Virus record (IMG/VR): IMGVR_UViG_3300025112_000161
Location: 1-25,869 of that record
DNA length: 25,869 nt
Origin: a virus
Strand: one strand, 5' to 3'
In this document: one piece after another, positions 282 to 22,189 of the stretch
How positions within the stretch are numbered: position 1 is the first letter of the stretch
How the letters are laid out: every line of letters starts with the position of its first letter
Made by a program: the position numbers and the translations under genes
Notes under the pieces: generated by a model
The model's database searches: none
What the model saw: the letters and a program-made list of their open reading frames with translations, nothing else
What the model was told of the DNA's origin: nothing

Positions 282-677
282 TTAAAACTTTTCCATATCC
301 TGCTCTTTTGGAGCTTGCTTTGCCCAATAACCCCAAATAGATTTTGCATTAACAAGTTTATCAGGGCTTATTCCATATCCTCCTTGAGAATCAGAGGACA
401 TCTGTGCAAAATCTTCAATTGAGGAGCCTTCAGAGTCGTCTAAATTAACCTCTTTATTTCCTTCTGTATCAAAAGTAAAACTCATATCCATAATTTCACC
501 ATCAACTTTATATTGTACGTTGATCTTATTCTTACCTTGCTTTACTTTATAATATGGTGATCTAAATGTTGATTTTACTTTTTGTGCAAATTTTGACCAC
601 CCATTGTCGTCTGCTTCATTGATAATTTCTTCAACAATAGCTCTCAATTGTGATCTTTTAATTTTCATCTTTTTCAT
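282..677 (-). CDS. Small protein with capsid-targeting-like leader, paralogue A
   Basis: This 131-residue protein is not recognised by family. It is clearly paralogous to the next gene upstream (828-1208). Both have a basic amphipathic start, then F-(R/K)-x-P-Y-(Y/F)-K-V, a Y-K-(V/I)-D-G-E block, an acidic middle and the same C-terminal E-K-F. The N-terminus M-K-I-K-R-S-Q-L-R-A-I-V-E-E-I-I-N-E ends in I-N-E, which fits the T4 prohead protease consensus (I/L)-x-E. Cleavage there would leave about 110 residues. GGGAG lies 8 bases before the first ATG, so the MKKMKIK start is preferred over the internal ATG. The role is unknown. A packaged internal or injected protein is an inference from the leader only. 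Confidence 0.8.
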   Translation of the reverse strand: MKKMKIKRSQLRAIVEEIINEADDNGWSKFAQKVKSTFRSPYYKVKQGKNKINVQYKVDGEIMDMSFTFDTEGNKEVNLDDSEGSSIEDFAQMSSDSQGGYGISPDKLVNAKSIWGYWAKQAPKEQDMEKF

Positions 678-691
678 TTTCTATTCTCCCT

Positions 692-838
692 TTATTGTTT
701 TATAGATCTTCTAAGTATTTTGAAATACTTTTCCACTGATAAATGCTTCATGATAGCCTTTCTAAGTTCAAAAGAACTATTGGCTATTGTGCTACCTTTT
801 ACTTTACCGACTCCTTCTTTTTTTTTGCTAAAATTTTT
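692..838 (-). pseudogene. Startless gene remnant between the two paralogues
   Basis: The 150 bases between the two paralogous genes hold an open frame from the stop at 839 to a TAA at 692-694. It encodes a protein-like stretch with KVKGSTIANSSFELRKAIMK and a basic C-terminus. It has no proper start; the first in-frame ATG is deep inside (near AIMKH). It is in the +1 frame relative to the 828-1208 gene and overlaps its stop. The pattern K-G-x(6)-F-E followed by a basic helix resembles the downstream half of the fragment at 1236-1383, so both may be remnants of one small-gene family. A +1 frameshift extension of the upstream gene at TTT-TAG-C is possible but unsupported. Confidence 0.4.
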
Positions 839-1208
839 CTAATTCCATCTCGCCTACTACTTCTTTTCCGCTCCACCATTTCCAATAATCTTTTTCTTTC
901 ACAAGATCAGCTGCTGATACTGTACCATCTTTATTAGGCTCTAAATCAAACATATCTTCTACACCAGCTCCTATTGGATCATCAACATCAACTAAACCAT
1001 CAGGTCTTATTAAAAATGTCACCAATTCTTGTACTTCACCGTCAATTTTATAAGTTACAGTGTGTTGTTTACCTTGGCTATTAACTTTAAAATATGGCTT
1101 CTTAAAAGTCTTTTTAATAAGTCCAATTAGTTGTTTAGTTCCGTCCTCATTATCTTCATTTAGTACTTCTCTAATAATACTTTTAATATCTGAACTTCTA
1201 ATTTTCAT
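828..1208 (-). CDS. Small protein with capsid-targeting-like leader, paralogue B
   Basis: This is a 126-residue protein and the tandem paralogue of the 282-677 gene. Shared landmarks are K-K-P-Y-F-K-V, Y-K-I-D-G-E, an acidic mid-section (VDVDDPIGAGVEDMF) and the terminal E-K-F. The leader M-K-I-R-S-S-D-I-K-S-I-I-R-E-V-L-N-E ends in L-N-E followed by an acidic stretch, a good match to the T4-type prohead protease site. GGGAG lies 9 bases before the ATG. The function is not recognised. Tandem duplication with divergence suggests an accessory gene under diversifying selection, for example an injected host-interaction protein, but this is inference. Confidence 0.82.
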   Translation of the reverse strand: MKIRSSDIKSIIREVLNEDNEDGTKQLIGLIKKTFKKPYFKVNSQGKQHTVTYKIDGEVQELVTFLIRPDGLVDVDDPIGAGVEDMFDLEPNKDGTVSAADLVKEKDYWKWWSGKEVVGEMELEKF

Positions 1209-1235
1209 CTTATTTTCTCCCGTTTTGTTTTTTTG

Positions 1236-1383
1236 TTAGTTATACACATTATTATGTGCCTGTTCTAATACTTTAGCAAATTTCTTATGTAATACCATTT
1301 CAAATGCAGGTGTTCCAGAATATCCCTTCCCCTTTTCTCTTTTTACTTACCTTTATATCTAATTCATTGACTTTCACTTTCAT
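1236..1383 (-). pseudogene. Frameshifted small gene sharing its start region with the 628-residue gene
   Basis: The minus strand starts with ATG at 1383 and reads MKVKVNELDIKVSKKRKG, then hits TGA at 1300-1302. Skipping one base in the GGGG run near 1330 opens a second frame, KGYSGTPAFEMVLHKKFAKV..., that ends at TAA 1236-1238. The combined product would be about 48 residues. The first ten residues match the start of the 628-residue protein encoded at 1405-3291, and the DNA around the start is a near-identical repeat. This is either a real one-base frameshift (pseudogene) or a homopolymer sequencing error. The second half resembles the fragment at 692-838. Confidence 0.55.
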
Positions 1384-1386
1384 TCT
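1355..1386. repeat. Duplicated start-region sequence, copy 1 (copy 2 at 3263-3294)
   Basis: Thirty-two bases here match 3263-3294 at 30 positions, including 23 consecutive identical bases. In both copies the repeat covers the start codon and first codons (MKVKVNELDI) of a minus-strand gene. The high nucleotide identity over the leader, with no similarity afterwards, points to recent copying of the leader segment rather than an old gene duplication. Confidence 0.75.
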
Positions 1387-1404
1387 TTCCAGTTTTGTAT
1401 TTTG

Positions 1405-3291
1405 TTAAAATGCTACCATTATTTTAGTATTTCCATTCATTTCGATTCCTAAATAATTTACAAACGCTTCAATACTTTCTTTTGCTGCTTCCTTTATTTT
1501 TGTAACTACTTTCTTGACAACATTCTCGTAAAAGTTTTTAACTAACCCCTTTACTTTGTCAATTAGCTTTTTACCAATAGATTTTAAATTGTTTATTGCA
1601 CCTTTGACATCAAACTCGCTCAATATTTCTAGTTGGCTGTCAACAAGCTGCTTTTCAAACAGTAATTGCTCTTCATTGATTATATCTTTCACATCTTCAC
1701 TTAATAAACGCAAAGAAGAAAATGATGAACGACCAGAGCTCTTAAAACCAACTGTTGTTTTTACATGAGATGCGTAACTACTAGCCCAATCAATATCAAT
1801 TTTCTTAACTGATAAACTACCATCTGTTCCAAATACTAGAATTTTATTTGCAACTGGTAACAATGAACTGTTTAATTTGTTGTTGCCTGAAAATTTGAAA
1901 TTACCTGTAGCAGCTTCATATACTGCCCATGCTTTAAATCGTTCATCTTCGAATATCTTATTAATATCACCCTCTAACCGTTTGTGTGTAATCAATCCAT
2001 CAATTACTCCTGTAATATTCTCTCTCATCTCTTTAAACTTTTCGTTTTTGATATAACCATTGAACCATTTCATAACTGCTGAAGATTTATTAATGGTTAC
2101 ACCTTCTATAAATTTATCCATCCAATTTCCCATTGCAGGAGCAATACCAGCTGAAATCATTTCAGATCTTGCGTGATCCTTATATGCCTTATCTGGATTT
2201 TTCTTGGATTTTGAACCCGGTATATCTGTTATTCTCTTCTTACTAGCTTCTTTCTTTATTTCTTTGTATCTCATTTCGATGTAATCATTAACAACATCAT
2301 TTTTTATTTCTGTTACTGACTGATCGAAATTCATTGAAATGAAATCTTTTTCTATAGATGAAATAACTCCATCCACTACCTTTTTCTTATTTCCCTTTTC
2401 ATATTTTTCATAATATGTAAGAGCTCCCTTAAACATCCCTATTGATTCACCGCCTTTTGCGCTTGCTAATTGTGAACCACCTTTTTTCTTCACTGATATT
2501 TTATTATTTTTTCCGCCAAATATATCAGTTTTGGGAGTGCCATCCGATCCGGGCCAGGTTGTATGAGGTTTATATGAGTCACCACCTGTTTGCCTTAAGA
2601 AACTTCCCATTGACTTAGCTTTTTTTATAACTTTAGAACAAACTTCAGTAAGATGTTCTTCATATGTTTCATATGTATTTGAAACTTCAGCTGCTTTCAT
2701 TGCTTCTTCTCTACTCATACCCATCATCTTATTATATTCAACACATAATCCCATTTCATAAAATGCTGCATCTCTTGGAACACCAGTGCTACCTCCTCCA
2801 CCTCCAGACGATAATTTCAAATTAATAATTTTACCATCCTTCGTCATATGTAAACCATAATACTGACCTGATATTTTGCCTTGTTTATCATTTTTTAATT
2901 GTACTTTTGTTCCCGGAGGAACTGCTTTTACACTAATACCTAGTAATTGTGAAACTTTTTTTGCTATTTCTTCTGGATCTTTTCCTCCTAGATCTGCTAA
3001 ACGATTATCACCTTTCATTTGTCCTAGTGATAATTTGCTTCCTAGCTTTGAGACAATTAAATCTCTAACTTCTTTTTCATAATTTGCTTCATGAAGTTTT
3101 TTTGTATTATTTTGTTCAGCTCCTATCATTTGTAACATTGTTCCATTCTTTAAAGAGCACGCTACTACTTTACCTTCTGGGTTCTTGAAAAAACCAAACC
3201 CTATATATTCTAACTTAAGTTTCATTGCTTTCTGATATGAATAATCAGATTCTCTGATATCAATATCTAGCTCATTGACTTTCACTTTCAT
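1405..3291 (-). CDS. 628-residue unassigned protein with possible PD-(D/E)XK-like motif and multiple leader-like sites
   Basis: This large protein is not confidently assigned. The N-terminus MKVKVNELDIDIRE ends in I-R-E and could be a protease-cleaved leader. Residues 163-167 are five glycines in a linker. At 251-275 is G-T-P-K-T-D256-I-F then K-I-S-V-K268-K-K-G-G-S-Q, a D...(S)-x-K arrangement reminiscent of PD-(D/E)XK nucleases, with possible acidic partner E179 in a preceding helix. The C-terminal 100 residues hold LLSE, DIINE and ILSE, again like prohead protease sites, before a strongly basic amphipathic helix region. It overlaps the upstream gene by 20 bases, with GGAG very close to the ATG. 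A virion-packaged nuclease is one reading; an ordinary structural protein is another. Confidence 0.75.
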   Translation of the reverse strand: MKVKVNELDIDIRESDYSYQKAMKLKLEYIGFGFFKNPEGKVVACSLKNGTMLQMIGAEQNNTKKLHEANYEKEVRDLIVSKLGSKLSLGQMKGDNRLADLGGKDPEEIAKKVSQLLGISVKAVPPGTKVQLKNDKQGKISGQYYGLHMTKDGKIINLKLSSGGGGGSTGVPRDAAFYEMGLCVEYNKMMGMSREEAMKAAEVSNTYETYEEHLTEVCSKVIKKAKSMGSFLRQTGGDSYKPHTTWPGSDGTPKTDIFGGKNNKISVKKKGGSQLASAKGGESIGMFKGALTYYEKYEKGNKKKVVDGVISSIEKDFISMNFDQSVTEIKNDVVNDYIEMRYKEIKKEASKKRITDIPGSKSKKNPDKAYKDHARSEMISAGIAPAMGNWMDKFIEGVTINKSSAVMKWFNGYIKNEKFKEMRENITGVIDGLITHKRLEGDINKIFEDERFKAWAVYEAATGNFKFSGNNKLNSSLLPVANKILVFGTDGSLSVKKIDIDWASSYASHVKTTVGFKSSGRSSFSSLRLLSEDVKDIINEEQLLFEKQLVDSQLEILSEFDVKGAINNLKSIGKKLIDKVKGLVKNFYENVVKKVVTKIKEAAKESIEAFVNYLGIEMNGNTKIMVAF

Positions 3292-3294
3292 TCT
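3263..3294. repeat. Duplicated start-region sequence, copy 2 (copy 1 at 1355-1386)
   Basis: This partner of the repeat at 1355-1386 covers the ATG and first codons of the 628-residue gene. It differs from copy 1 at two adjacent positions (gc versus at). Confidence 0.75.
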
Positions 3295-4024
3295 CCATAT
3301 AATAACTCTTCATTACATTTTTAAGGTCATCAAATTCTTCAATTGCCTTTTCCTCACTAATATTATGAGTACTGGTTACTTTCTCAACATATTCTTTTTT
3401 CATTTCCTCAACTCTATCATTATCTACATATGTTATAACTTCTTTAGGTTGATTCAAATTATCAAACAATTCCTCATAAAATTCATCACCTAAAGAGTTA
3501 GCAAAGAATTCAGCCTCAGCCACGGGATCATCTTGTGGATTAAACTCTTCATCATTTAAAATTGGCTTATTATCATCATCATTTAATATTCCTTCAATAT
3601 GAGCATTCAATTCATCAACAATTTTTCTAATCAATCTCTCTTGATTTTTCTTATTCTTTACAACCCATTCTTCATACTGATCCTTTTCTCCATTAAATGT
3701 TTCAAAATCGTGAACTTTCAAATATATTGAACCATCTGAAGTACTCCTTATTTTATTGTTAATATAATCCAAAATTTTATTCTTAACATCAATAAATTTA
3801 GATTCATCATGATTATACATATTTCTTAATTCTAAAACAGATTCATTAAATGCCCACATGTATATATTGCGTATTTTTTTTAGTATATCATATTTTGAAT
3901 ATTCAACCTCTTTAGCATTTTTAGGCTCATATCTACGATTATCATCATCTCTATATTGTCCTATATATTCTTTAAACTTTGGGACAAGCTCTTTTTTATT
4001 AAATTTAAATTCAGTCTCTATCAT
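3272..4024 (-). CDS. Acidic 250-residue protein of unknown function
   Basis: No family is recognised. The protein is charged and predicted mostly helical. It has a central acidic, Asp/Asn-rich stretch (around ILNDDDNKPILNDEEFNPQD) and an acidic C-terminus ending in ENESESQ. There is no signal peptide or membrane segment. The start ATG overlaps the stop of the polymerase-like gene (ATGA) and its end overlaps the next start by 20 bases, so the three genes from 5364 down to 1405 look translationally coupled. By context it could be a partner of the polymerase-like protein or of the 628-residue protein; nothing in the sequence decides between them. Confidence 0.75.
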   Translation of the reverse strand: MIETEFKFNKKELVPKFKEYIGQYRDDDNRRYEPKNAKEVEYSKYDILKKIRNIYMWAFNESVLELRNMYNHDESKFIDVKNKILDYINNKIRSTSDGSIYLKVHDFETFNGEKDQYEEWVVKNKKNQERLIRKIVDELNAHIEGILNDDDNKPILNDEEFNPQDDPVAEAEFFANSLGDEFYEELFDNLNQPKEVITYVDNDRVEEMKKEYVEKVTSTHNISEEKAIEEFDDLKNVMKSYYMENESESQ

Positions 4025-5364
4025 GATTTCAACTCCCTATATGTCAAACCAAATTTGGTAGTAAAATAATATTTGACATTGAATTCTTTTAGTTTCATAG
4101 CAAATGTAGAAATTATTTTCATTAATGAATCTAATTCATTTCTATCTACATCCAAAATTATTTCATCATATACTGTAGCTATAATATGTGATTGTAATTT
4201 ATTCTCAAATAACTCATCCATTATATTCTTTACATTTTCTGTCATCATCATTGTCGAATGATTCTGGATCATGTTGTTAACGGACTTGGTATAAGCAGAT
4301 TCTTTGTCTTGGTATTTTATTTGTTTACCATAGCCTGTAGTAATAGATAGATTTTTTATGGCTTCATTTCTAAATGACTTTATATATGTTTTCAGTTTAG
4401 GATAATGACTTATCATTGTGTCTATTATCGTCTTGTCATATTTCGAAGAACCATACATCCATTTAATAATATTGAATTTTACATTGCTTCTGGTTTCACC
4501 TTTTATTTTGTCAAGGATGGTTTGATATATATCCTTTTCACTAGAGTGTATATCAGCTGTTGACAGTAGAACTTTCAATTCATAGCATTTAAAGTCCAGA
4601 GATAGTAGCAGACCATTTGCAAATTTACTCTTTATTGCATCGCCATATTTTGATTGGAATGGATGAAATTTAGAAACCAATCTACCAGTACTACTTTTAT
4701 TGAGATCATATTCTATATTTGCCAATGGTGCTTGGTCGTCATAGTCAATGAAATATTTCTTTACATTGTCATAACCTACTTTGTGCAAGTTTTTATTATC
4801 AATCCCAATTCCCATGTTCTCAATATAAGCATAATAGGGAGTGATAGTATGATTCATGTCTGTAAAATCATTGGTCGGATTATTTTTGTGTTTAACAATA
4901 AACTCAATGTCTTTTACTAAGCTACTGTTTAACACCTTTTTATCTAATACTTGCCAAATTGGGTTTTCTAAATTTGTTGACTCTCTATAAAATGATACAG
5001 CAGGCGGATACGAATCATATAGATCCGATATGGATGTGTAATCACTTAATAATTTAACATCAACAATATTTACTGGAAGATGGTTTAATTCAAAATTACT
5101 ATTAACATTATACAGATACTTTATAAATTGCTTGAAATCAATCATTGCAATTTCAGCACCTGATTGTCTCAGTATCAAAACAAATTCTTTGATGAATGAG
5201 ATCTCACTATAAATATTACTGGAAATGTAAATGGTATCATTTTCTAATACAGCAATGGAAATTAACTTATTAAAAGAATTATTAAGCTTATAAGCTATAG
5301 CTATATTATTAAATTTATTGATTACATTTAGAATAGTACTTAATTCAACAATTTCTATATTCAA
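4021..5364 (-). CDS. Compact family A DNA polymerase-like protein
   Basis: This 447-residue protein has the family A (Pol I) palm motifs in order. They are T226-G-R228-L; motif A S-L-D257-F-K-C-Y-E262-L; motif B R292-x3-K296-x7-Y304-G305 with E. coli Pol I spacing; N363-x3-Q367; and motif C V-Y-D400-E401, with Y where H is usual. The motif B position equivalent to E. coli F762 is I300. Residues 60-110 look like a degenerate 3'-5' exonuclease domain lacking clear catalytic acids. P-Y-Y-A-Y-I-E-N-M-G-I-G-I-D (about 176-189) is the usual thumb start, but the thumb is very short. The start codon is TTG, with AAGAGG seven bases upstream. It probably acts in phage DNA synthesis or repair. T4-like phages normally use a family B polymerase, so its presence here is notable. 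Confidence 0.82.
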   Translation of the reverse strand: MNIEIVELSTILNVINKFNNIAIAYKLNNSFNKLISIAVLENDTIYISSNIYSEISFIKEFVLILRQSGAEIAMIDFKQFIKYLYNVNSNFELNHLPVNIVDVKLLSDYTSISDLYDSYPPAVSFYRESTNLENPIWQVLDKKVLNSSLVKDIEFIVKHKNNPTNDFTDMNHTITPYYAYIENMGIGIDNKNLHKVGYDNVKKYFIDYDDQAPLANIEYDLNKSSTGRLVSKFHPFQSKYGDAIKSKFANGLLLSLDFKCYELKVLLSTADIHSSEKDIYQTILDKIKGETRSNVKFNIIKWMYGSSKYDKTIIDTMISHYPKLKTYIKSFRNEAIKNLSITTGYGKQIKYQDKESAYTKSVNNMIQNHSTMMMTENVKNIMDELFENKLQSHIIATVYDEIILDVDRNELDSLMKIISTFAMKLKEFNVKYYFTTKFGLTYRELKS

Positions 5365-5436
5365 TTTAAAACCTCTTAATAATTTAATATAATCTATTGT
5401 CTATTGGATAACCTATCTATTCTTATTAAGCAATCA

Positions 5437-6606
5437 TCAACCTATTTGTAAACTATTCTGTAAAGATAAGGAGGGTATAGTTCCTAAATAATTTAACATG
5501 AATTCAGTTCCAGATAGTGCTCTATTGAATATTCTGGTCAGACCAACCATTCCAGTTATGCCTGAATTAGATAAATCTAAGTCTTTACCTATCACTAATC
5601 TACCATTTGAAAGCATATTAGGGAATGTAGAAATTGTATTTGTATAAGCAGCACTATTTCCATTGATATAAATATATGCCCCAGACAAATCATTTGAGCC
5701 TGTAAGAACTGTAGCGCCAATATGATACCACTCACCAGTATGTAAGAATCCAGCAGTTAAAGTACTAGTTCCAACCTTTAATTGTAATGTTCCAGATATT
5801 TCTTTAAGAGACATGACCTCAGTAGTTCCAGAACCAACAGACATAATATTAGTAGTTCCAGTTGTTGATAGTTTAATATGTGTCATCATTGAAAAACCAC
5901 CGGCAGTTGTAGCATGAAATCTACCTGAACTTAAACTCTCTATCCAAGATTTGCCATCTAATCTAAAACCACCTTCACAAGGTGAATATGTAAAACCACT
6001 AATAGTAGAAATTGTACCATCACCAGAAGCAACACCTTTGATATTTGCACTAATACTATTTCCAGATCTATCTTCTATACCTGTAAGCTGAGAGTTTAAT
6101 TCTTCCCTATTGTATGTGTATAATAATATTTGGCTTTTGCCAGTAGTGCCGTCTGGTGGTGTTTGATCCGGTCCTGGCCTATAACCTGCACCTAAATAGT
6201 TTAGGTTATTATTAATTTTTGTAAGTCCTGAAAGAGATATATCACCTGTGAATATTCCAGTATCATTTACAATAACATCAACTCTGTTTCCATTAGTAAG
6301 AACTGTTGAAATTACATATTCAACGTTTGAAGCAGTACTAGTATTATTATCAGCTGTTGTTGATTCGGGATATATTGATTTTGTTCCCGTTGCAGATTGT
6401 AGTCCTCCGGAACTTCCATAAACAACTGCCAATACTCCTGAAGCGGCTTCCCTTAAATTAGACTCTCTTAATCTCACTACGGATAAAAATTCACCACCTG
6501 TTAATGCTCTATTATTACTGAGTACAAATATAGGCTGTTCGTTAAAATATCCTTTATTTGTATTGAAACGTACTGTATGTTGTATAATAAAATTGTCTGT
6601 TAACAT
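5437..6606 (-). CDS. Virion structural protein with C-terminal LamG/concanavalin-like domain
   Basis: This 389-residue beta-rich, Ser/Thr/Gly-rich protein is probably a tail fibre or baseplate-rim adhesin. Residues 1-200 are an unassigned structural segment. Residues about 205-375 form a LamG-type jelly roll: a starting GGFRLDGKSWIE strand, a GEWYHIGATV strand (W293, H295), YIYINGNSAAY, RLVIGKDL, then GLTRIFNRALSGTEF. It follows the 6617-8107 gene closely, with AAAGGA straddling that gene's stop codon. LamG folds in phage tails commonly bind surface glycans, so host attachment is the likely role. It is the last structural gene before the polymerase-like gene. Confidence 0.8.
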   Translation of the reverse strand: MLTDNFIIQHTVRFNTNKGYFNEQPIFVLSNNRALTGGEFLSVVRLRESNLREAASGVLAVVYGSSGGLQSATGTKSIYPESTTADNNTSTASNVEYVISTVLTNGNRVDVIVNDTGIFTGDISLSGLTKINNNLNYLGAGYRPGPDQTPPDGTTGKSQILLYTYNREELNSQLTGIEDRSGNSISANIKGVASGDGTISTISGFTYSPCEGGFRLDGKSWIESLSSGRFHATTAGGFSMMTHIKLSTTGTTNIMSVGSGTTEVMSLKEISGTLQLKVGTSTLTAGFLHTGEWYHIGATVLTGSNDLSGAYIYINGNSAAYTNTISTFPNMLSNGRLVIGKDLDLSNSGITGMVGLTRIFNRALSGTEFMLNYLGTIPSLSLQNSLQIG

Positions 6607-6616
6607 ATTTTGTCCT

Positions 6617-8107: not shown

Positions 8108-8283
8108 ATTAATCTATCCTTTTATTTACACTGTGCTATTTTTGGGTTTGCTCTTTTGATGAAAAAAAAGTGTTTTAGTATAAACATTTCTCGGCCTTAA
8201 AAAATAATTTTCTCGTAGAACCTACTATATTATAAATTGTATATATATCCTAACGTTTGACATATTTTAAAAATTTTCACAGA
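8108..8283 (-). other. 176-base AT-rich gap between structural genes
   Basis: This is the longest gap inside the structural cluster. Apart from the Shine-Dalgarno sequence for the 6617-8107 gene and the weak terminator-like hairpin listed separately, I see no open frame with coding character. A TATAAT hexamer on the minus strand at 8229-8234 has no good -35 partner and lies upstream of the hairpin, so I do not call it a promoter. Confidence 0.5.
8162..8186 (-). terminator. Weak AT-rich hairpin followed by a T run
   Basis: On the minus strand TGTTT (8182-8186) can pair with AAACA (8171-8175) and is followed within a base or two by eight Ts (8162-8169). The stem is short and AT-only except for one G-C pair, so termination efficiency is doubtful. 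The position after the 8284-9102 gene and before 6617-8107 is sensible. Confidence 0.25.
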
Positions 8284-9102
8284 TTATATGTCTAATTGAA
8301 CCCTAACTGTGATAGGCACGTCTGAAGGTTTCCTTAATGGTTGTGTAAATTTAGCAAGAGCTAACAAATCATTTTCATCATTGTATAAACCTACATGTGT
8401 TATATATGGTCTCCAATTTTGTCCACTGGATACTAAATCGGCGAAGTAATTAGAGGATGTTGTTGATCCTGTAAATGGTTCAACCATATAATTACCAACT
8501 GAAGCTGTTGCAAAAGAACTAGGATTCAATGTATAATTTTGTTCATTTGGTTGAGCTTTACAAAATACACTAAGTTCTGTATTACCTACAACACCTTTAT
8601 ATTTTATAGCCGTTATTGATTGAACTAAAGCAGTTAATGATGATGATGTAGATGTGACAGCAAATATACCTTCATCATTTAGAAATACTCCATAAGTGAT
8701 ATTATCAACTTTTCTTTTTAGTTCACCCGAACCTGAATCATAATAATCACCTGCATGAGCTCCTGTAATTGTAGCAGTAAAAGATCCTTCTTTTATTTTT
8801 TCATCAAAAAATCTTTTCTTTAATGCAAATACTCCAATATCTAAAGTCAATGAAGTGGAAGAGTCAAGAAATCCTCTCGTAACCATTTGTTGTCTTACTA
8901 CATTATAAGTACCTGATGTCACATCATTCTGCGATGCTGTTGTAGAGCATACACTAGTGAGTAATGTATCAGCGGTAGTTGAAGTTAGAGTCCTTGATGT
9001 TTCAAAATTGGTATAAACAACATCAGCTCTATTCAAATTAATGTATGCCGATTCAATATCCCTATGAACTATGATTGGTAGTACTGTATCTGTATTTGCC
9101 AT
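8284..9102 (-). CDS. Tail/baseplate structural protein, member of a three-gene family
   Basis: This 272-residue protein shares its last 140 residues with the products of 9106-11283 and 11297-12166. Shared landmarks are a G-V-F-x-N-D-E-G strand, C-K-A-x-P-x-E-x-N-Y-T-x-N-P, then Y-I-T-H-V-G-L-Y-N-D-E-N-D-L-L-A-L-A-K and a basic-proline strand P-L-R-K-P. The N-terminal half (SAYINLNRADVVYTNFETSR) is less conserved. The block reads as a common beta-rich attachment domain that anchors different N-terminal modules to the virion, probably at the baseplate. There are only three bases between it and the upstream gene, with a weak Shine-Dalgarno sequence, so translational coupling is likely. Confidence 0.78.
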   Translation of the reverse strand: MANTDTVLPIIVHRDIESAYINLNRADVVYTNFETSRTLTSTTADTLLTSVCSTTASQNDVTSGTYNVVRQQMVTRGFLDSSTSLTLDIGVFALKKRFFDEKIKEGSFTATITGAHAGDYYDSGSGELKRKVDNITYGVFLNDEGIFAVTSTSSSLTALVQSITAIKYKGVVGNTELSVFCKAQPNEQNYTLNPSSFATASVGNYMVEPFTGSTTSSNYFADLVSSGQNWRPYITHVGLYNDENDLLALAKFTQPLRKPSDVPITVRVQLDI

Positions 9103-16400: not shown

Positions 16401-16491
16401 TTAATGAAAGGTCAGCTAAATTTGAACTAGCTGATCCGATGGCAGATAAAGATTGAATCAATGCATCAAATGTTTGTCCTTGTGTTGGCAT
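13486..16491 (-). CDS. gp7/gpI-like baseplate wedge protein with inserted LamG domain
   Basis: This 1001-residue protein is close to T4 gp7 (about 1030). Residues about 190-325 resemble phage tail protein I: L-L-Q-T-L-G-D-E-M-D-V-L-K-G-F-I-D-Q-L, then W-K-R-V-L-K-D-L-I-Y-I-I-K-N-K-G-T-R-E-T-I-E-S-I-G-R-L-Y-G-V. Residues about 355-575 are a LamG module (FSPNRNFTIQMRVSA, NFINVFVSRTGDNLKIWTMG, GSFTGYMHEVRSWTVPLEEE, LSGHWKLRENR). The remainder is a long beta-rich region without recognised domains. The gene position, downstream of gp6 in the same operon, matches T4 order 6-7. The likely role is the peripheral wedge linking inner baseplate to fibres. The family call is moderate; the LamG call is firmer. 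Confidence 0.7.
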   Translation of the reverse strand: MPTQGQTFDALIQSLSAIGSASSNLADLSLTGDRAKVIPTIDYNQFGKHVFFGDAVRKYRHTLRRIQNTYPIGLCASDTASLSAKNVYKVDQWKKESSGFDIWFLDQLSLTDTMTALSTNQNGENVALTFVNRNSNNTIIGSQTAIVDSISARAIDFEELNFDTITKTSGSANDHTSYPLTAELSITRTQKLKNMLPQVLFDGDENQVLEKLLQTLGDEMDVLKGFIDQLSYIKSINYSNINRTPNKFLPVLSNHFGVTLFQSAVNSAIDSFLISSTTGATTQEVAYEVWKRVLKDLIYIIKNKGTRETIESIGRLYGVDYNFMKTDEYSIFRDNIKVKVPEEIDVPILFSTGDVYVQVPTGSNSALDFSPNRNFTIQMRVSATAALEHSLLVHPLYSIKLDASGQAHFVATAGTTASTTQSSISSFIQKKDNFINVFVSRTGDNLKIWTMGVSGSGSGGDDVVVLASAVTTGVAALNYDSSGGSASFGAYFPGSGSFTGYMHEVRSWTVPLEEEDLKEHTRNWESTSFINSTGANAAGYGSLSGHWKLRENRVLTGGHNYIVDSTTAANTATPVNFNNQTTKRYRVFPNMSKFVYWYPTGLAIDNDKVRQSTDLEKQIEDPGYISITLQPINAVNRDIRNVLQDVNVRELLGDPKDLYENDYTGPITAAMNNIRTRYGNVVTDDLESGSGLSAAANRMVNLNTFVDAMDNFNDVLGNVFTFIDQFIPAKSNVIAEGLLIEPHILHRPKDARISYDASKITPTAFDMFNHYLELKATAATGATTATFQGFKYKDGIYNFIDNSITSNQLIKPLSNRAGESVNIPRFSQTRAGRFIPVKITPADPGTSQVEVTLSRLLLSPTADIAATTGVIDSTIRLLKNGKPFETEEPSLRFEFPSSADGTNYFKATIGNLDAGQGRIVDGKNTEFTSKLSTKELQMKLELAQVVRSASGNGVSGEIGVVGINITNLFSNQTQVVRIAIGSRQELFDELNSGQGGTPIGS

Positions 16492-16501
16492 TTATTATCC
16501 T

Positions 16502-16711
16502 CTAAAATCCAAATACTCTATTGATCTTTTTATCACCGTACTTGTCTCTCAATATCATAAAGATCATATCTTCTTTATTTAGATCTCTGAGATCTATTAT
16601 TTTATTGGTTCTATTTAACTCAGCTTTAAGACCACTTATAGAACTTTTCTTCCACTGCTTATATTCAGCTTTAATTTGATCATATACATTAGCTACTTCA
16701 CGTAGTTTCAT
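16502..16711 (-). CDS. 69-residue helical protein with MKLRE-type leader
   Basis: This small, basic, mostly helical protein (KAEYKQWKKSSISGLKAELN; C-terminus DKKINRVFGF) has no recognised family. Its N-terminus M-K-L-R-E-V-A matches the short (L/I)-x-E leader seen in several small genes at 18177-19562. GAGGG precedes the ATG. It lies just upstream of the gp7-like gene and downstream of the 462-residue structural gene. It could be a packaged small protein or a minor assembly factor. Confidence 0.65.
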   Translation of the reverse strand: MKLREVANVYDQIKAEYKQWKKSSISGLKAELNRTNKIIDLRDLNKEDMIFMILRDKYGDKKINRVFGF

Positions 16712-16733
16712 TTTTTAGCCCTCTGCTAATAAG

Positions 16734-16784
16734 TTAATATTCATTGTCATAATCATCTTCGTAATAGCCACTAATACCTATCAT
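16734..16784 (-). CDS. Possible 16-residue acidic, tyrosine-rich micro-ORF
   Basis: In the 77-base spacer after the 462-residue gene an ATG-to-TAA frame encodes MIGISGYYEDDYDNEY. AAGGAG abuts the ATG with essentially no spacing, which is unfavourable for initiation. The acid/Tyr composition is striking for non-coding DNA, but the frame is too short to judge. Confidence 0.2.
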   Translation of the reverse strand: MIGISGYYEDDYDNEY

Positions 16785-16788
16785 CTCC

Positions 16789-18177
16789 TTATACTACTCT
16801 AAATGCATATTTTTCAGGATCTTGTATAACAATAGTTTCACCTCTTATAGTCAATTTTAACACAACATGATAGTCTATTCCTGTATATAAATTATTCGTA
16901 TCAAATTCAAAGAAATTACCTCTTGTGTCATATGACAATTGTGATGCCGGTATTTCTACTAAATCAGTTTGAACTTCTCTTATTTCCCATGTTCCATCAG
17001 TACATATGAAATTACTAACAGCAGTTGTTGCAGCCGTTAATGCAGTAAACACAAGAGCATCATCCTTAATAAATAATAGTGGTCTAACTTTCGCACCCTT
17101 TTCATATGTTCTTTCTAAATTCCTGAATGTGATTCTATATTTAGATGTTTTGTATTCACTGAAAGCACCCTCTGCAGAACTACCTTGGAAACTAAATAGA
17201 TAGTTGGCTGTAGGAGAAGCAGATATGAACCAGTTATCTTTAAGAGCTGTATAAGAAGTTCCTGCAGATAATGGTAGGGTTCCAATATTACATTTGTAAA
17301 TACCTTTGAATTGTCTTACCGCAGTTAAAGCAGTGTGAATAGCAGTTCCGGCTTGTGTTTCGGTTGATGATGTAAGTCCTGATAAAGTAATATTGCCGGG
17401 AAAATCATCAGTTCCATTCAAGTCTTGGAATTGTCCATTTATAATATTGTAGAAGTATAGTTGACCAGTGGCATTAAAAGGAATATTATTTCTGTCATCT
17501 TTTATAGATCCTGGCCATTCTAATTGGATATATGAAGAGTTTCTAGTATTAGTTTCTCTACCATAGAACATTTTCTTATAAAATGATTGAGCAGATGTTG
17601 ATGCTCCTGTCTTGAGTTCTTGAGTATCAGTCATTTTAAGGATAACACCAAAGTTGCCTGTGTTACCACGTAACCATTCATTAAACATACTAGTAATATT
17701 TACCTTAAGATCTTCTTCACCATGATCAAAAGCTTGTGTTGCTGAGCTAGAATCAACAACAAACTCCCCACCAGTAGTTGTCCATACAACCGTGGATTGA
17801 GCTGATACAGCATTTGCGTAACCAGTTTGCGAATAATTATCATTGTCTAACCCTGTTCCTTCGTCCCATTCCTGTGTAAGAGGATGGACATTAATATTGA
17901 ATGATTGTGCTTGCTCATCTCCATGCTTTGCATTAAACATATAGAGATAAGCTGTAACAGTTGAATCAGTTCTAGGATCCACCAAATTACCTGCAGTAAT
18001 ATCAGCTGTCAAAGCAGATAGATTATATTTCACTAGAGCTCTGGCAAACATCTTCCTAGACTCTACTATAAAGAATTTATTCCATACTTCTAATATAGGA
18101 GCTGCACCAAAGTTTGATGTTAAACTGCGCTCCGTAATCCAAGTATCCCGGTCTGCATATGCTCTTCGTATTGACAT
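16789..18177 (-). CDS. Structural protein with N-terminal DNRLRE/CBM96-like beta sandwich
   Basis: In this 462-residue protein, residues about 5-215 follow the pattern of DNRLRE/CBM96-type domains. A-D-R-D-T-W-I-T-E-R-S-L-T-S-N-F-G is followed by L-E-V-W, R-A-L-V-K-Y-N-L-S-A-L, V-T-A-Y-L-Y-M-F, V-H-P-L-T-Q-E-W-D-E-G-T-G, then a W-L-R-G-N-T-G-N-F-G-V-I-L-K strand. The remainder is beta-rich (KYRITFRNLERTYEKGAKVR, YHVVLKLTIRG). The start codon overlaps the stop of the Arr-like small gene (TAATG), so translation is coupled. It sits between gp6 and gp7 equivalents, where T4 has no such gene. It is probably a wedge-associated or glycan-binding decoration protein. Confidence 0.78.
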   Translation of the reverse strand: MSIRRAYADRDTWITERSLTSNFGAAPILEVWNKFFIVESRKMFARALVKYNLSALTADITAGNLVDPRTDSTVTAYLYMFNAKHGDEQAQSFNINVHPLTQEWDEGTGLDNDNYSQTGYANAVSAQSTVVWTTTGGEFVVDSSSATQAFDHGEEDLKVNITSMFNEWLRGNTGNFGVILKMTDTQELKTGASTSAQSFYKKMFYGRETNTRNSSYIQLEWPGSIKDDRNNIPFNATGQLYFYNIINGQFQDLNGTDDFPGNITLSGLTSSTETQAGTAIHTALTAVRQFKGIYKCNIGTLPLSAGTSYTALKDNWFISASPTANYLFSFQGSSAEGAFSEYKTSKYRITFRNLERTYEKGAKVRPLLFIKDDALVFTALTAATTAVSNFICTDGTWEIREVQTDLVEIPASQLSYDTRGNFFEFDTNNLYTGIDYHVVLKLTIRGETIVIQDPEKYAFRVV

Positions 18178-18380
18178 TATAGTTCTCTCATTATCTTTGC
18201 TTTATCCACTGCAAATACAGTAGCTCCAGGTGTTGTATTGATTATTATATCAAGATTCTTTTTTCTGCCCTTTTCAGATATTTCTAGCCCATGTTCGTTT
18301 GGGGGAGTTATATATTCACCTATCTTAAAGTTTCTTGATGTTCCGTGATAATATGTGTCTATGGCTTCTTTTAGCAGCAT
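18177..18380 (-). CDS. Short Arr-like ADP-ribosyltransferase N-terminus with MLLKE leader
   Basis: This 67-residue protein begins M-L-L-K-E-A-I-D then Y-Y-H12-G-T-S-R-N-F-K-I-G-E-Y-I-T-P-P. This is the opening H-G-T...G-(D/E)-x-I-x-P signature of rifampin ADP-ribosyltransferase (Arr)-type folds. The following K-N-L-D-I-I-I-N-T-T-P-G-A-T-V-F-A-V would be the next core strands, but the usual Tyr/Phe is replaced and the C-terminal Glu-containing part is absent. Full domains are about twice this length. It is flanked by clean one-base overlaps on both sides, so it is not obviously a truncation. It may be a degenerate or miniature ADP-ribosyltransferase, or just a structural relic. L-K-E fits a protease-cleaved leader. 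Confidence 0.6.
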   Translation of the reverse strand: MLLKEAIDTYYHGTSRNFKIGEYITPPNEHGLEISEKGRKKNLDIIINTTPGATVFAVDKAKIMREL

Positions 18381-18838
18381 TACATTTTCCTCAAACCAAA
18401 TAATACACCATCAGCTCCCGAATAAGCGGCAGATGTTAATTTATATTTTAGAGGCCCTGCGAATTTTTTTATTAATTTCTTATATAGACTAATTCTACTT
18501 TTTTCTAAAGCTGAAAACCAAATCTGTGATGGTTGAAATTTCTTTATAAATTCTTTAATTATAGCCATTATAGTAGCAAATATTCTAAATTCGTCTCCTG
18601 TATTAGTAATCATTTGACTACTTTTATTTTTTTTGTCTAAACTAGTAAAATCTAAAGTGAAAGCTTTATTTTTCAAGTCACCTTTAGTCGGTTGCTGAAT
18701 TGATTGAATATACGATTCCAATACAAATTCAACGTCATATATAATTTTATCATCTGTTATGAATGAGGTATACACACTATAATCATCGTACTTTAATGTG
18801 TATGAATATGGCTTGTTTAGCACTTCATTTAGCTTCAT
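18380..18838 (-). CDS. 152-residue conserved-type phage protein with MKLNE leader
   Basis: The family name is not recalled with confidence. The layout is suggestive of an acetyltransferase-like alpha/beta fold: N-terminal strands (YTLKYDDYSVYTSFITDDKI), F-T-L-D-F-T-S-L, then N-T-G-D-E-F-R-I-F-A-T-I-M-A-I-I-K-E-F-I, then P-S-Q-I-W-F-S-A-L-E-K-S-R-I-S-L-Y-K-K-L-I-K-K-F. The last block resembles the core strand and R-x-x-L-Y-x-x-L helix of such proteins in other phages. The leader M-K-L-N-E-V fits (L/I)-x-E. It overlaps the next start by one base and the previous stop by four, so it is part of a coupled small-gene run. Confidence 0.68.
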   Translation of the reverse strand: MKLNEVLNKPYSYTLKYDDYSVYTSFITDDKIIYDVEFVLESYIQSIQQPTKGDLKNKAFTLDFTSLDKKNKSSQMITNTGDEFRIFATIMAIIKEFIKKFQPSQIWFSALEKSRISLYKKLIKKFAGPLKYKLTSAAYSGADGVLFGLRKM

Positions 18839-19053
18839 GTCAAATCTATCTCTTTAACCCTTACACCATTGGGAGTTGTGATACCAATTTTAATATCCAC
18901 ACTAAATTCCAGTGGACCTATAGATTCATATTTGGCTATGATCTTTTTGAGTTTAGCCGCATTTGCTTTCTTGCCAAATTTCCTTGCCAAGAAATATAAA
19001 GCTTCCTCATCATCTTCGAAAGCAAAGTCTTCAGTTAGTTTAGATAGTTTCAT
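18835..19053 (-). CDS. 72-residue protein with MKLSKLTE leader
   Basis: This unrecognised small protein begins M-K-L-S-K-L-T-E-D-F-A, fitting (L/I)-x-E followed by an acidic stretch. A central basic helix (FLARKFGKKANAAKLKKIIA) precedes a beta-like C-terminus (EFSVDIKIGITTPNGVRVKE). ATGA overlaps join it to the genes on both sides, so it is surely translated with them. Function unknown. Confidence 0.68.
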   Translation of the reverse strand: MKLSKLTEDFAFEDDEEALYFLARKFGKKANAAKLKKIIAKYESIGPLEFSVDIKIGITTPNGVRVKEIDLT

Positions 19054-19262
19054 GACAATATTCTTAGCATATTTCTTAGTATGACAAGTTCCTTTTGTAC
19101 AAGGCGTACTTGATCTTCTATCTTATCAGCCTTGGTTATATCATTATCTTGTCTTACAGCTGTACCAATAAGACTCTTAACCTTATCCCAATCATTCATG
19201 ATGCCTTGTATTTCCTTGTATGCTTTCGCATATCCGCCTGATTTAGCTTCGTTTAGTTTCAT
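19050..19262 (-). CDS. 70-residue helical protein with MKLNEA leader
   Basis: This all-helical small protein (DKVKSLIGTAVRQDNDITKA; KIEDQVRLVQKELVILRNML), with heptad-like hydrophobics near the C-terminus, suggests a coiled coil. The N-terminus M-K-L-N-E-A matches both the (L/I)-x-E site and the Ala that often follows it in T4 internal proteins. GGAG lies nine bases upstream of the ATG. No family is recognised. Confidence 0.68.
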   Translation of the reverse strand: MKLNEAKSGGYAKAYKEIQGIMNDWDKVKSLIGTAVRQDNDITKADKIEDQVRLVQKELVILRNMLRILS

Positions 19263-19277
19263 TACAATGTTCTCCGA

Positions 19278-19562
19278 TTAAGCTTCAGCCTTTCCTGACT
19301 TTACTCTGTTCAAAGTCTTTATCATTACAACTAGTTGCTTATCTTTAGTTTTTTGATATGCATATATTAGTGCATTAGTCATCTTTTCCAATTGTTCTGG
19401 AGTAAGCAACCTTGCATTCTTAGCTAGCTCCATATCGACTGAGCCGCCTTTGGGTTCTTTCATTTTACTAGAAGCCTTAGCCAACTTCCCATCTTCCTCT
19501 TCTTCAATCTCTTTAATTGCTTCTACAACTACTTTCTTAAGTTCTGACTTACGAATTTTCAT
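19278..19562 (-). CDS. 94-residue protein with long basic leader ending IKE
   Basis: The N-terminus M-K-I-R-K-S-E-L-K-K-V-V-V-E-A-I-K-E is nearly the same type of leader as in the two genes at 282-1208, 18 kb away, although the mature parts are unrelated. After an acidic run (IEEEEDG) come a Lys-rich stretch and a helical C-terminus (MTNALIYAYQKTKDKQLVVM). GGAG lies eight bases before the ATG. It is the first gene after gp6 in a set of five coupled small genes. Function unknown; a packaged protein is the leader-based hypothesis. Confidence 0.72.
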   Translation of the reverse strand: MKIRKSELKKVVVEAIKEIEEEEDGKLAKASSKMKEPKGGSVDMELAKNARLLTPEQLEKMTNALIYAYQKTKDKQLVVMIKTLNRVKSGKAEA

Positions 19563-19588
19563 CTATTATCTCCGTTTATTAAATTTAA

Positions 19589-21391
19589 TTAAAGAGTTCG
19601 TCCCGTAAGATCAAAGTTTAAGAATTTAATCTGCCATAATCCATCTTCCGGGAACCTTATAATACCGCTCTTTGTATTTGCCTCAACTTTGAATGTTACG
19701 TTTGAATAAGTTCTACCATCTTCAGTTCCAGTTATATTTCTCACCTTCAATTCAGCAACCGATCTGATTTTATCTATAGACTGAATCTTAGATATAATAT
19801 CAGGTAGCACTATAGTATCATTAAAGTTACTATTGGAAAGATCGAATTCTCTTCTCAATAAGAAGAACGCTTCCAATAAAGCTTCATTGGCGTTAATATT
19901 TGGTTCTGGAACTATAGAAAAATCAACACCAATGTCAATGATTTTACCATCAGTTATTTTTATAGAATCAGAGAATGATTTGAATCTCTTAACAAAAGTT
20001 TCAACGTTATTCTTTAGTACTCCACCTGGAGCTGTTAATTGACCATTGTCATTTTTAGATATAAGCAACAATTCAACACCAAGTCTATTGCTAGGATCTT
20101 TTCTAGCAAATGTTCTAAATACTGTACCGAATGCTGTAGGCATAGATAGAGTAGTTATTTGATAGTCTTGAAGTGTTACAGCTCTGTTTTGTGCCGCAAA
20201 ATAAGCAGAAGCATTCTCTCTTATTTCATTAAGAGTCTCTCTTTCGGAACCACCTGTTGCCTGTACATCATTAGTAACTGTAAGTAATCTTTCTATATTA
20301 TCCGCAACATCAGCTGATATACTTCTAAAATTAGGAGTCTTATAAGTTATATTGATATCCCTAAAATATGTTAAAGTATTAGAACCAACATTGGTATTAA
20401 TACCTCCGCCATATCTATATTGTATATCTAAGGAAATATTTGCAGGAGCAAGACCGAGTGATCTTGTATTAAGAAATTGAGCCGCATTAATTGTTGATGG
20501 TGAGAATGAAGAGGCAGAACCTCTAACAGTTGTAGGTAATACAAAGTCTTCTGGGTTAGGAACGATTTCTGAATCTTCAAGTGTCAATTTACCAGATCCA
20601 AATGTAATTGAAGTATCCCCTTCAGATTCAACCTCAACTATATATCTCCTCGGTACTCTTTTCATTTTAAGAACCTTTGGTGTAGTACCTGATGTTGATG
20701 TGTCATTATCCTCACCAAAAAATATAGTATCTTGTGCAAGGAAATCTGTCTGAGTCCACTCATTACTATCTGAACTCGTAATAGAAATAACCTCTGTTAT
20801 ATCTTTATCGGGCATTGTTAATTTTAAAAATGGTTGTGCAGCCCCGGCTGTGTATACAAACGTTCTTAGCTCACCTGCAACAGCAGATATACCTGATATA
20901 GAAGCTGTAACTACTGTACCATCTGTTACTACACTTCTATTTGCTGTTAATGAGAAATCTACATCTTCAACAAGCATAAATGAAACTGATGGTTCAAAGC
21001 TTGTGACTACCCTAGTGCCCTTATTGAGTGTGAACGCTTCAGCAGCAGATGTTGAGTCATTAAATATTGCACTGACTGATAATTCAGTGACCGCAGGTGT
21101 TGCTAATCTTGGTTGTCTTCCTAATGTTTTTGATAGCCCTATAATGTTCTTCTCTTCAACAGCTTTATTTATGAATGTCTCATTAGCCTGTCTATCAATA
21201 TAAAACGTCAATAAATCACCAACATAAGCAAGCATTTCAAGAATAGCCATACCTCCAGACGCTTCGTTAAAGTCCTGGAAATCATTAGGGAAGTTCTGTT
21301 TTGTAAATTCTATGATGTCACTTTTTATGCCATCAAAGTCTTTGCTTACATAAGATACATTTCGTATTTCTTTTAAATCTACTGTAGCCAT
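19589..21391 (-). CDS. gp6: Baseplate wedge protein gp6 (gpJ-like)
   Basis: This 600-residue protein compares with 660 in T4. The N-terminal region S-K-D-F-D-G-I-K-S-D-I-I-E-F-T, N-E-A-S-G-G-M-A-I-L-E-M-L-A-Y-V-G-D-L-L-T-F-Y-I-D-R-Q-A-N-E is the hallmark of T4 gp6/gpJ proteins of aquatic myophages. The C-terminal half carries the conserved gpJ-like section (N-R-A-V-T-L-Q-D-Y, P-T-A-F-G-T-V-F-R, D-G-K-I-I-D-I-G-V-D-F-S-I). gp6 forms the dimeric ring that holds the inner baseplate together and triggers sheath contraction. It starts three bases after the ADP-ribosyltransferase-like gene ends. Confidence 0.9.
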   Translation of the reverse strand: MATVDLKEIRNVSYVSKDFDGIKSDIIEFTKQNFPNDFQDFNEASGGMAILEMLAYVGDLLTFYIDRQANETFINKAVEEKNIIGLSKTLGRQPRLATPAVTELSVSAIFNDSTSAAEAFTLNKGTRVVTSFEPSVSFMLVEDVDFSLTANRSVVTDGTVVTASISGISAVAGELRTFVYTAGAAQPFLKLTMPDKDITEVISITSSDSNEWTQTDFLAQDTIFFGEDNDTSTSGTTPKVLKMKRVPRRYIVEVESEGDTSITFGSGKLTLEDSEIVPNPEDFVLPTTVRGSASSFSPSTINAAQFLNTRSLGLAPANISLDIQYRYGGGINTNVGSNTLTYFRDINITYKTPNFRSISADVADNIERLLTVTNDVQATGGSERETLNEIRENASAYFAAQNRAVTLQDYQITTLSMPTAFGTVFRTFARKDPSNRLGVELLLISKNDNGQLTAPGGVLKNNVETFVKRFKSFSDSIKITDGKIIDIGVDFSIVPEPNINANEALLEAFFLLRREFDLSNSNFNDTIVLPDIISKIQSIDKIRSVAELKVRNITGTEDGRTYSNVTFKVEANTKSGIIRFPEDGLWQIKFLNFDLTGRTL

Positions 21392-21394
21392 ATT

Positions 21395-22189
21395 TTATCT
21401 CTCTGTCAATCCATATTTTTTTAATTCTTCAGGCTTATTTTTTCTTAACCAGTATATTGTTGCCACACCATGACCAACTTCATCGGCTTTATATTCATTG
21501 CCTGCATGAATTACATTAACGTTTAACTTTTTTATGACATCTAATAATTTCTTTCTTGTATCAAAAGAGCCTCGTTGAGCTCGGCCTAAAGGAAGTGATT
21601 GAGTCATTTTTAGTAAAGTGATTGCAGGATATATTTTATTCTTCTTGGTTTTTTTCTTAGAAGGTAATACAACACCGTTGACATAGCTCTTTACGTCAAT
21701 TTTATCGGCATAAATTCGTTCTTCGGCTTCCCATTTTCCGTGTAGTGAAGCTGTACCTTTAGCAAGATCTGTAAGATTAACTCCATCACGGCTCCAACCG
21801 AGGGCTTGGTCCTTTTTCACTTTCTTTGCAAATTCAGGATCAGTTTTCATTTGATCTTTAAGTTTCTTGATCTGTTTAGCATTAGTATTAGAGACAGGTG
21901 TTGTGCTATATTTGGTTTTTAATTTGTCGACATTAAATCTGAAACCTATGCCACCTGTTTCCACCATCTTCCCAGAAGGGAGCATGGTTCTTCTAGGATC
22001 TCTTGTAAAACTAATAAAAGGCTCATCCGCTTTACTTTCTGGTCCTTTTGTGCCCATCATCTTTCGCAATCCATGTTGTTTCGTTCCCTTTAATGTATTA
22101 GAAGACACTATAGTTATAAAATTTTCTATAGATGTAAAATGATATAGAGCAGCTCTTGAAGCTTCCGATATGATGTATTTTAGTTTCAT
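21395..22189 (-). CDS. ADP-ribosyltransferase-like protein with MKLKYIISE leader
   Basis: This 264-residue protein has, after the leader M-K-L-K-Y-I-I-S-E-A, L-Y-H17-F-T-S-I-E-N-F-I-T-I-V-S-S-N-T-L-K, the first core strand and helix typical of ADP-ribosyltransferases of the H-type (DarT/DUF4433-like and related phage families). F-I-S-F-T-R-D-P follows at 58-65, then G-G-I-G-F-R-F-N-V-D-K-L, and finally W-E154-A-E156-E-R-I-Y-A-D-K-I, where the catalytic Glu is expected. The exact subfamily and target are unknown; DNA, RNA and protein targets are all possible. T4 Alt is a packaged ADP-ribosyltransferase with a cleaved leader, which this gene parallels. It sits between gp25 and gp6. Confidence 0.7.
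   Translation of the reverse strand: MKLKYIISEASRAALYHFTSIENFITIVSSNTLKGTKQHGLRKMMGTKGPESKADEPFISFTRDPRRTMLPSGKMVETGGIGFRFNVDKLKTKYSTTPVSNTNAKQIKKLKDQMKTDPEFAKKVKKDQALGWSRDGVNLTDLAKGTASLHGKWEAEERIYADKIDVKSYVNGVVLPSKKKTKKNKIYPAITLLKMTQSLPLGRAQRGSFDTRKKLLDVIKKLNVNVIHAGNEYKADEVGHGVATIYWLRKNKPEELKKYGLTER

Follow-up and report, generated by a model that had tools for sequence, protein, structure and literature searches.

Known capsid-targeting systems

The internal proteins IPI-III of phage T4 bear a capsid-targeting sequence (CTS), which is short, N-terminal, ends in (L/I)-x-E, is cut by gp21 and is placed on otherwise unrelated accessory proteins (PMC9026906, PMC12373910, PMC3012670). T4 Ip1-Ip3 inhibit distinct GmrSD restriction enzymes and have only the leader in common (PMC12373910). 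T4 Alt is a packaged ADP-ribosyltransferase whose leader is also very short (six residues; GenBank X15811.1) and lies before E followed by (V/L/A)(F/L)(D/E), and phage ADP-ribosyltransferases are thought to be often packaged in the head (PMC9503650). T4 gp21, gp22, gp23 and gp24 are listed as cleaved (PMC9026906). Leaders of a similar layout are found on nine genes of a 25,869-base viral fragment, IMG/VR record IMGVR_UViG_3300025112_000161 (the whole stretch is called the window below), and these leader genes are the subject of this report.

There are further systems of this kind. In phiKZ and SPN3US, many head proteins are cut after Glu by a divergent relative of gp21 (PMC9026906), and the cleavage motif is S/A-x-E in phiKZ compared with (L/I)-x-E in the window. 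Phage polyvalent proteins are likewise predicted to be packaged and are multi-domain, in contrast to the small cargo of the window, and a link to leaders is not described in the part of PMC5512222 covered. Titles and abstract starts in the open PMC literature contain no report of such leaders outside T4-type, P1 or phiKZ-type phages, yield only T4 and SPN3US for capsid targeting in marine phages or cyanophages, and mention neither MKITK nor DUF6934; "not described" is therefore restricted to that literature.

The window leaders differ from those of T4 IPI-III (MKTYQEFIAE / MKTFKEFT) and fall outside that group by sequence. They form two other classes, one of which is longer and helical-looking, and their genes lie in a baseplate operon, unlike the T4 internal proteins. 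Because of this difference in sequence, the window proteins are regarded not as homologues of the T4 internal proteins but only as working in a like manner. Quite probably, they are accessory cargo of a distant T4-like myovirus, targeted to the head, trimmed by a protease and injected. Such an arrangement would most likely be a version of T4 capsid targeting in which leaders are used far more widely, and no new kind of system.

Leader genes in the window

In the window, 27 genes were scored, all on the minus strand; no head gene is visible in the fragment and no tRNA was found in it. All nine open reading frames (ORFs) singled out in an original prediction, made from the letters of the window, are present on the minus strand, and by pattern all nine reach (L/I)-x-E within 21 residues. 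A start of the form M(K[LI] or LL) with [LI]xE by residue 21 occurs in 8/27 window genes vs 3/616 ORFs of random viral contigs (Fisher p = 4.9e-10); the 616 are those with a ribosome-site-like upstream stretch, the unfiltered count being 3/910, and the gene at 282-677 is excluded from the eight because it starts MKKMKI. The tripeptide [LI]xE alone discriminates less (14/27 vs 108/616). Indeed, LKE in the baseplate protein gp6, ITE in a 462-amino acid (aa) protein and IAE in a 67-aa protein (23795-23998), of which the original prediction had warned, are all there, and its view that the signal is the whole leader agrees with the enrichment. A GGAG/GAGG-type site lies upstream of the genes at 282, 828, 16502, 18177, 19050 and 19278, and inspection of the upstream bases revealed no clear ribosome-site-like stretch at 18380, 18835 and 21395.

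The leaders are of a short class (class I), MKL-x-x-(V/I/L)-(L/I)-x-E plus shorter forms such as MKLNE, or of a helical class (class II), MKI-x-K-S-x-L-K-x-(I/V)-(I/V)-x-E. Profiles of the two classes were built from N-termini of other contigs (27 non-redundant for class I, 86 for class II), with the window and T4 outside the training, and 6672 internal segments of the window served as the null. The nine genes are as follows:

282..677, minus strand: 131-aa leader protein of the helical class, MKKMKIKRSQLRAIVEEIINE; outscores all 6672 segments with the class II profile; no family over cut-off
828..1208, minus strand: 126-aa leader protein of the helical class, MKIRSSDIKSIIREVLNE; outscores all 6672 segments with the class II profile
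16502..16711, minus strand: 69-aa leader protein of the short class, MKLRE; class I p 0.038; missing from six related contigs
18177..18380, minus strand: 67-aa leader protein, MLLKE and then YYHGTS; phrog_2110, E 1.1e-9 (no function)
18380..18838, minus strand: 152-aa leader protein, MKLNE and a DUF6934 body (PF22028, 41.7 bits, cut-off 27); class I p 0.0022
18835..19053, minus strand: 72-aa leader protein, MKLSKLTE; class I p 0.031; missing from six related contigs
19050..19262, minus strand: 70-aa leader protein, MKLNE; member by pattern only, profile p 0.116; missing from six related contigs
19278..19562, minus strand: 94-aa leader protein of the helical class, MKIRKSELKKVVVEAIKE; outscores all 6672 segments with the class II profile
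21395..22189, minus strand: 264-aa leader protein of the short class, MKLKYIISE; outscores all segments with the class I profile

Five of the nine are thus clearly picked by the independent profiles, two are weak and two are not distinguished. Since gp6, a non-leader protein, gets a profile p of 0.035, values of about 0.03-0.05 carry little weight. The nine might be ordinary small phage ORFs that start MKL or MKI by chance and have no common function, as four of them are not clearly separated by the profiles and most bodies have no family match. This explanation appears very improbable in view of the enrichment above, of the strong profile support for five genes, and of the fact that leaders recur elsewhere with unrelated bodies (100 class II bodies form 74 clusters; see below).

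The mature parts had been called unrelated, which is not quite accurate, as 33% identity (E 1e-22) marks the proteins at 282-677 and 828-1208 as paralogues of each other. No other pair among the nine is detected by blastp at E <= 0.1. The original prediction also counted a large protein as a probable member:

1405..3291, minus strand: 628-aa protein, MKVKVNELDIDIRE, doubtful member; class I p 0.045, not above the non-leader gp6

Its only tblastn match in related contigs (E 1e-3) covers residues 2-58, at 37% identity, in contigs G003 and G004. Because the N-terminus is its most conserved part, unlike in the other leader genes, the 628-aa protein is left out of the leader set. It has no relative in named phages at E <= 0.01. 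The 628-aa protein and a shorter relative in G003 (L037:529-1980) share about 57 N-terminal residues with a GFGFF/GFGYF module, and from this similarity the two may possibly represent another N-terminal adaptor with an exchangeable C-terminus.

Accessory inserts in a conserved baseplate operon

Homologues in six related contigs were found for 1/9 leader genes vs 18/18 other genes (p = 4e-6); the six include the close pairs G002/G007 and G003/G004, and the 628-aa gene is counted among the others. The sole leader gene with a relative there is the DUF6934 gene, and the relative occupies a different slot. As eight of the nine have no relative in contigs where all 18 others have one, the leader genes are, judged by gene content, accessory and inserted into a baseplate/tail operon that is otherwise conserved. 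In the related contigs, other leader genes fill the slots of this backbone, starting MKLRQVLNED, MYLKEVLDNPYPY, MLLNEILDRPYPW, MKLRQLFES and MKLKDILDE. For example, the slot of the gene at 16502, between homologues of the 462- and 1001-aa genes, is filled in G003 by the different leader gene with MLLNEILDRPYPW. A narrow leader pattern matched only the near-identical contig L001, which has 0-3 differences from the window in the leader genes, too few for a codon-position test of coding.

This use of variable slots, together with nine bases (ATGAAACTA) common to four window genes, would also be expected if the shared N-terminus merely reflected an element acting at the DNA level, for instance a recombination point or a translation-start context that aids gene swapping. 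That origin is highly improbable: outside ATGAAACTA the leader DNA of the window differs, and in class II leaders there is synonymous variation, with protein-level similarity reaching about residue 15.

The conserved backbone includes two baseplate wedge genes flanking the 264-aa leader gene:

19589..21391, minus strand: baseplate wedge gp6 homologue, not a leader gene; phrog_219, E 2.4e-26
22192..22602, minus strand: baseplate wedge gp25 homologue, not a leader gene; phrog_261, E 7.6e-12

Full-length relatives of the window gp6 are found in Microcystis phage Mel-JY01 and Flavobacterium phage immuto (about 30% identity), and relatives at 54-98% identity in twelve IMG/VR loci; scans of the genome contigs collection for gp6 and DUF6934 gave no relative. 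The gp25 and gp6 genes are adjacent in Mel-JY01 and immuto, and in the window the 264-aa leader gene (21395-22189) sits between them. In the tail region, the only similarity of a 447-aa protein (4021-5364, minus strand) is to the C-terminal portion of phage DNA polymerases (phrog_17, E 5e-9, residues 311-413), and a relative of it is also present in G002/G003/G004. Downstream of the tail genes of G003, at about 21-41 kb, there is a run of genes resembling sugar-nucleotide, glycosyltransferase and other small-molecule enzymes, as judged from N-termini alone.

Leaders and the prohead protease in other contigs

Class II leaders are widely spread. A degenerate DNA pattern for MKIxK(S/T/R)xxL(K/R)xIIxEE was run on IMG/VR, and the 80 loci among the matches listed hold 109 such genes, of which 100 bodies fall into 74 clusters with 63 singletons. 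A Pfam scan of 99 of these proteins gave family matches at E 1e-3 for no more than 2 of them. A looser pattern gives up to 14 matches in one contig, and none in 24 random contigs or when reversed. A gp21-type protease (Peptidase_S77) is found in 14/19 class II contigs of >= 90 kb and in 6/8 of 40-90 kb, that is, in 20/27 of >= 40 kb vs 1/24 random contigs (p 3e-7); over 100 kb, the counts are 13/13 and 0/3. In this comparison the class II contigs were chosen by leader and the random ones by an arbitrary 14-mer (80/103 stretches kept; all 24 contigs >= 40 kb used), their lengths differ, and T4-like ancestry confounds the association with S77.

The protease that the original prediction proposed to look for is not found in the fragment and is found in its relatives. 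Peptidase_S77 is present in both complete named relatives, Mel-JY01 (E 4.7e-31) and immuto (E 6.9e-36), and four contigs combine a gp6 relative (30-32% identity) with S77. Furthermore, the leaders themselves stand on genes of the head module elsewhere. The immuto protease has a gene starting MKKSQIVKAVQEVLEE a short way upstream, and a 536-aa protein behind the protease starts MELNQLFEG. In the best 80 S77 loci among the matches listed, genes directly behind the protease often start MKLKSLLKES, MIKLKNILKES or MIKLKTILLE, and MKVNNILAES is the start of the 549-aa proteins in L342/L348. From position and size, we infer that the 549-aa proteins and the 536-aa protein of immuto are major capsid proteins. 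In one contig (G051), both leader classes follow the protease side by side. The class I profile count of 29/50 S77 loci is circular, since its training partly drew on S77 loci later counted. In class II contigs, a gene for 120-148 aa with a class II-like start lies <= 3.5 kb from S77 in 14/20 head modules vs 0/1101 random ORFs, by a regular expression written after those N-termini had been viewed.

In L275-L288, a gene for 124-148 aa with a class II-like N-terminus is located near Peptidase_S77 in 13/20 head modules, and by its location and start it is a candidate prohead core protein. Two adjacent genes of Mel-JY01 (60276-60926 and 60923-61105) have a common leader and start, MIKLKSLL(Q/K)EIISDRVWHLTT, the second encoding only 60 aa; the pair looks like a partial duplication by sequence, and the first product has no Pfam match. 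In immuto, two further N-termini recur, one MENTFDLKKFLVENKLT-like and one MKKQILSEQFRRMQKLAGIITES-like (117587, 118588, 103762, 125197 and 25470, 111631), which, as far as their recurrence indicates, are probably more leader classes.

The class I profile was also applied to 36 T4 genes, author-selected from one 46-kb stretch with 74 features. gp24 (MAKINELLRES) ranks first, gp2 second, gp3 third and gp21 fourth, followed by nudE and wac, with gp22 seventh and gp23 eighth. gp24 itself is a structural head vertex protein and not cargo. T4 gp2 (L453), the DNA end protector in second place, starts MAIFQIINES; from this start it is possible that gp2 is an unrecognised processed head protein, or the resemblance may be due to chance.

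A fixed Glu in DUF6934 proteins and in Alt

The DUF6934 body of the 152-aa protein allows the junction between leader and body to be compared across many sequences. Relatives were taken as the best 80 of 156, the scan having used two peptide patterns, one of which includes the Glu. Their leaders are highly varied: MLLKE, MKINELINE, MRAKEFIQE, MKTFKQYITE, MKTEYLSFGDYITE and others. Nevertheless, in 40/41 non-redundant sequences a Glu stands five residues ahead of the Pro of the first conserved Pro-Tyr, and 6/40 of these Glu-bearing rows fit the Glu-containing search pattern. The residue two before that Glu is L, I, V, F or M in 37/38. The single row without Glu (L396) is an anchoring error, its actual sequence being MRATEFVAE followed by SLDRAY. 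In this set, 7/73 sequences without a usable motif were dropped, some rows are closely related, and at least 5/41 (L393, L406, L430, L434, L435) are domains within larger proteins, so that the true start is uncertain in some rows. In an alignment of 26 homologues, E5, P10 and Y11 are invariant. DUF6934 leaders also resemble the leaders of neighbouring unrelated genes in the same locus (14.6 vs 6.25, standard deviation 1.42, 0/5000 shuffles; 26 loci, 170 neighbours), the signal coming mainly from 8/26 loci.

A similar arrangement is seen in Alt. In eight Alt N-termini of T4-like phages, Glu-6 is invariant and 6-13 residues are found up to and including this Glu; for T4 Alt, GenBank X15811.1 annotates a six-residue propeptide that ends at that Glu. 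On comparison of the N-termini, DUF6934 proteins and Alt have the same layout, a variable leader and a fixed Glu. Foldseek with the DUF6934 model finds viral Alts at E 1.5e-4 to 1.9e-3. An hhalign comparison of DUF6934 with the eight Alt N-termini gave a probability of 3%, and one with T4 Alt alone established no homology either; because of these non-significant profile comparisons, homology of DUF6934 and Alt is just a lead. Matches of the model to PDB folds are weak, with Z 9.2 for an antizyme, 8.9 for an RNase E domain and about 8 for GNAT enzymes, and possibly represent common arrangements.

In the large multi-domain proteins L393, L430, L434 and L435, an xNE or IDE triplet precedes the internal DUF6934 domain. 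From its place in the sequence, the triplet could be a site at which the prohead protease separates domains, or it could contain a structural Glu.

The leader may instead be an uncut tag that binds the core or the capsid, with the Glu as part of a binding helix or of the body fold. Residues 3-7 are helical in the AlphaFold model of DUF6934 (mean pLDDT 80 over residues 1-10), the domains within the four large proteins keep the Glu at the same place, and in T4, targeting persists but processing is lost when position 10 of a CTS is Asp (PMC9026906). On the other hand, the leader is variable in length only upstream of the Glu, the annotated propeptide of T4 Alt ends exactly there, and relatives encode a gp21-type protease. 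An uncut tag is accordingly unlikely, though less so than chance or a DNA-level element, and trimming of the leader after the Glu is preferred.

Weighing the cargo interpretation

The original prediction had proposed a packaged and injected cargo set. The proposal gains support because Peptidase_S77 is encoded by relatives, the same leaders stand beside the protease on head-module genes elsewhere, gp24 comes first among the T4 genes scored, and DUF6934 and Alt have a fixed Glu. It is weaker in that the members are unequal, two bodies are paralogous and the class I profile misses the T4 internal proteins.

Several observations weigh against head targeting and trimming. No gp21-type protease is found in the 25.9-kb window; since this is a fragment, the absence is uninformative on the whole genome. 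S77 is found in just 3/12 long DUF6934 contigs (3/5 over 100 kb), and the invariant Glu of DUF6934 could, from the alignment, be structural rather than a cut site. The genes at 18177 (p 0.118) and 19050 (p 0.116) are not separated from internal segments by the profile. The literal MK[LI]/MLL pattern is rare in the named relatives (1/228 in Mel-JY01 and 2/214 in immuto, where variants are used instead), and the protease neighbours of Mel-JY01 fit neither leader class well. In the 168-kb contig G071, which has S77 and a gp6 relative, 5/193 N-termini pass; four lie no more than about 6 kb from the protease, and gp6 has none in its vicinity, so that in this more distant relative leaders mark only the head module. 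Among T4 genes, gp2, gp3, nudE and wac are within the top six of the class I profile, and IPI-III (-7.2, -5.0, -5.0), Alt (-1.4), gp67 and gp68 score low; the profile thus covers one leader class and not every gp21 substrate.

Possible cargo

Most bodies behind the leaders in the window match no family, and two of them are weakly ADP-ribosyltransferase-like, a likeness to T4 Alt. The body of the 264-aa protein (YHFTSIENF) matches Tox-ART-HYD1 at E 0.0031 with 18.5 bits, under the cut-off of 25. A PDB sequence search with this protein gave matches at E 0.16 and above, none usable, and no relative exists in named phages at E <= 1; its AlphaFold model without an alignment is unusable (pLDDT 35.6), so that the ADP-ribosyltransferase reading stays weak. 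In the 67-aa protein (18177-18380), YYHGTS weakly resembles the start of an ADP-ribosyltransferase fold, the match of this short ORF to Arr-ms (E 0.12, 13 bits) being below the cut-off of 25. For the 126-aa protein (828-1208), no homologue is found in named phages at E <= 1. Behind leaders elsewhere, L432 has a zeta-toxin-like kinase (4.8e-11, over cut-off) and L405 a PARP-like domain (E 2e-4, under cut-off). The multi-domain L434, in this respect like the polyvalent proteins, starts MRVEELHE and has DUF5661 over the cut-off and DUF6934, ParB_N, NT5C and CTP_transf-like domains just under their cut-offs.

Possible mechanism and significance

In the proposed mechanism, the leader would bring each cargo protein to the prohead core during head assembly, and a gp21-type protease, which would be encoded elsewhere in the genome of this virus, would trim the cargo after (L/I)-x-E. 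The mature cargo would stay in the head, be present in the virion and enter the host along with the DNA. It would then work early in infection, as soon as it has entered, and would probably counter host defence or serve takeover by acting on host targets; candidates are the two weakly ADP-ribosyltransferase-like proteins and the DUF6934 protein.

The points of interest are how broadly leaders are used and that the Glu stays fixed while the leaders are exchanged. A wider reading, somewhat less likely than not, is that phages possessing a gp21-type protease generally use capsid-entry leaders as a modular code for delivery, well outside the T4 group. Each lineage would then have its own leader classes, among them the helical one with up to 14 matches in a contig, placed on dozens of unrelated proteins. 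Bodies such as DUF6934 would exchange their leaders precisely at the Glu where the cut falls, the motif may also serve for cleavage between the domains of large injected proteins, and N-termini alone would predict the injected proteome of uncultured phages. If this is true, the injected anti-defence and takeover proteins of many uncultured phages, including those without a family, could be listed from their leaders alone, and the leaders would be possible packaging tags for protein delivery by phage heads.

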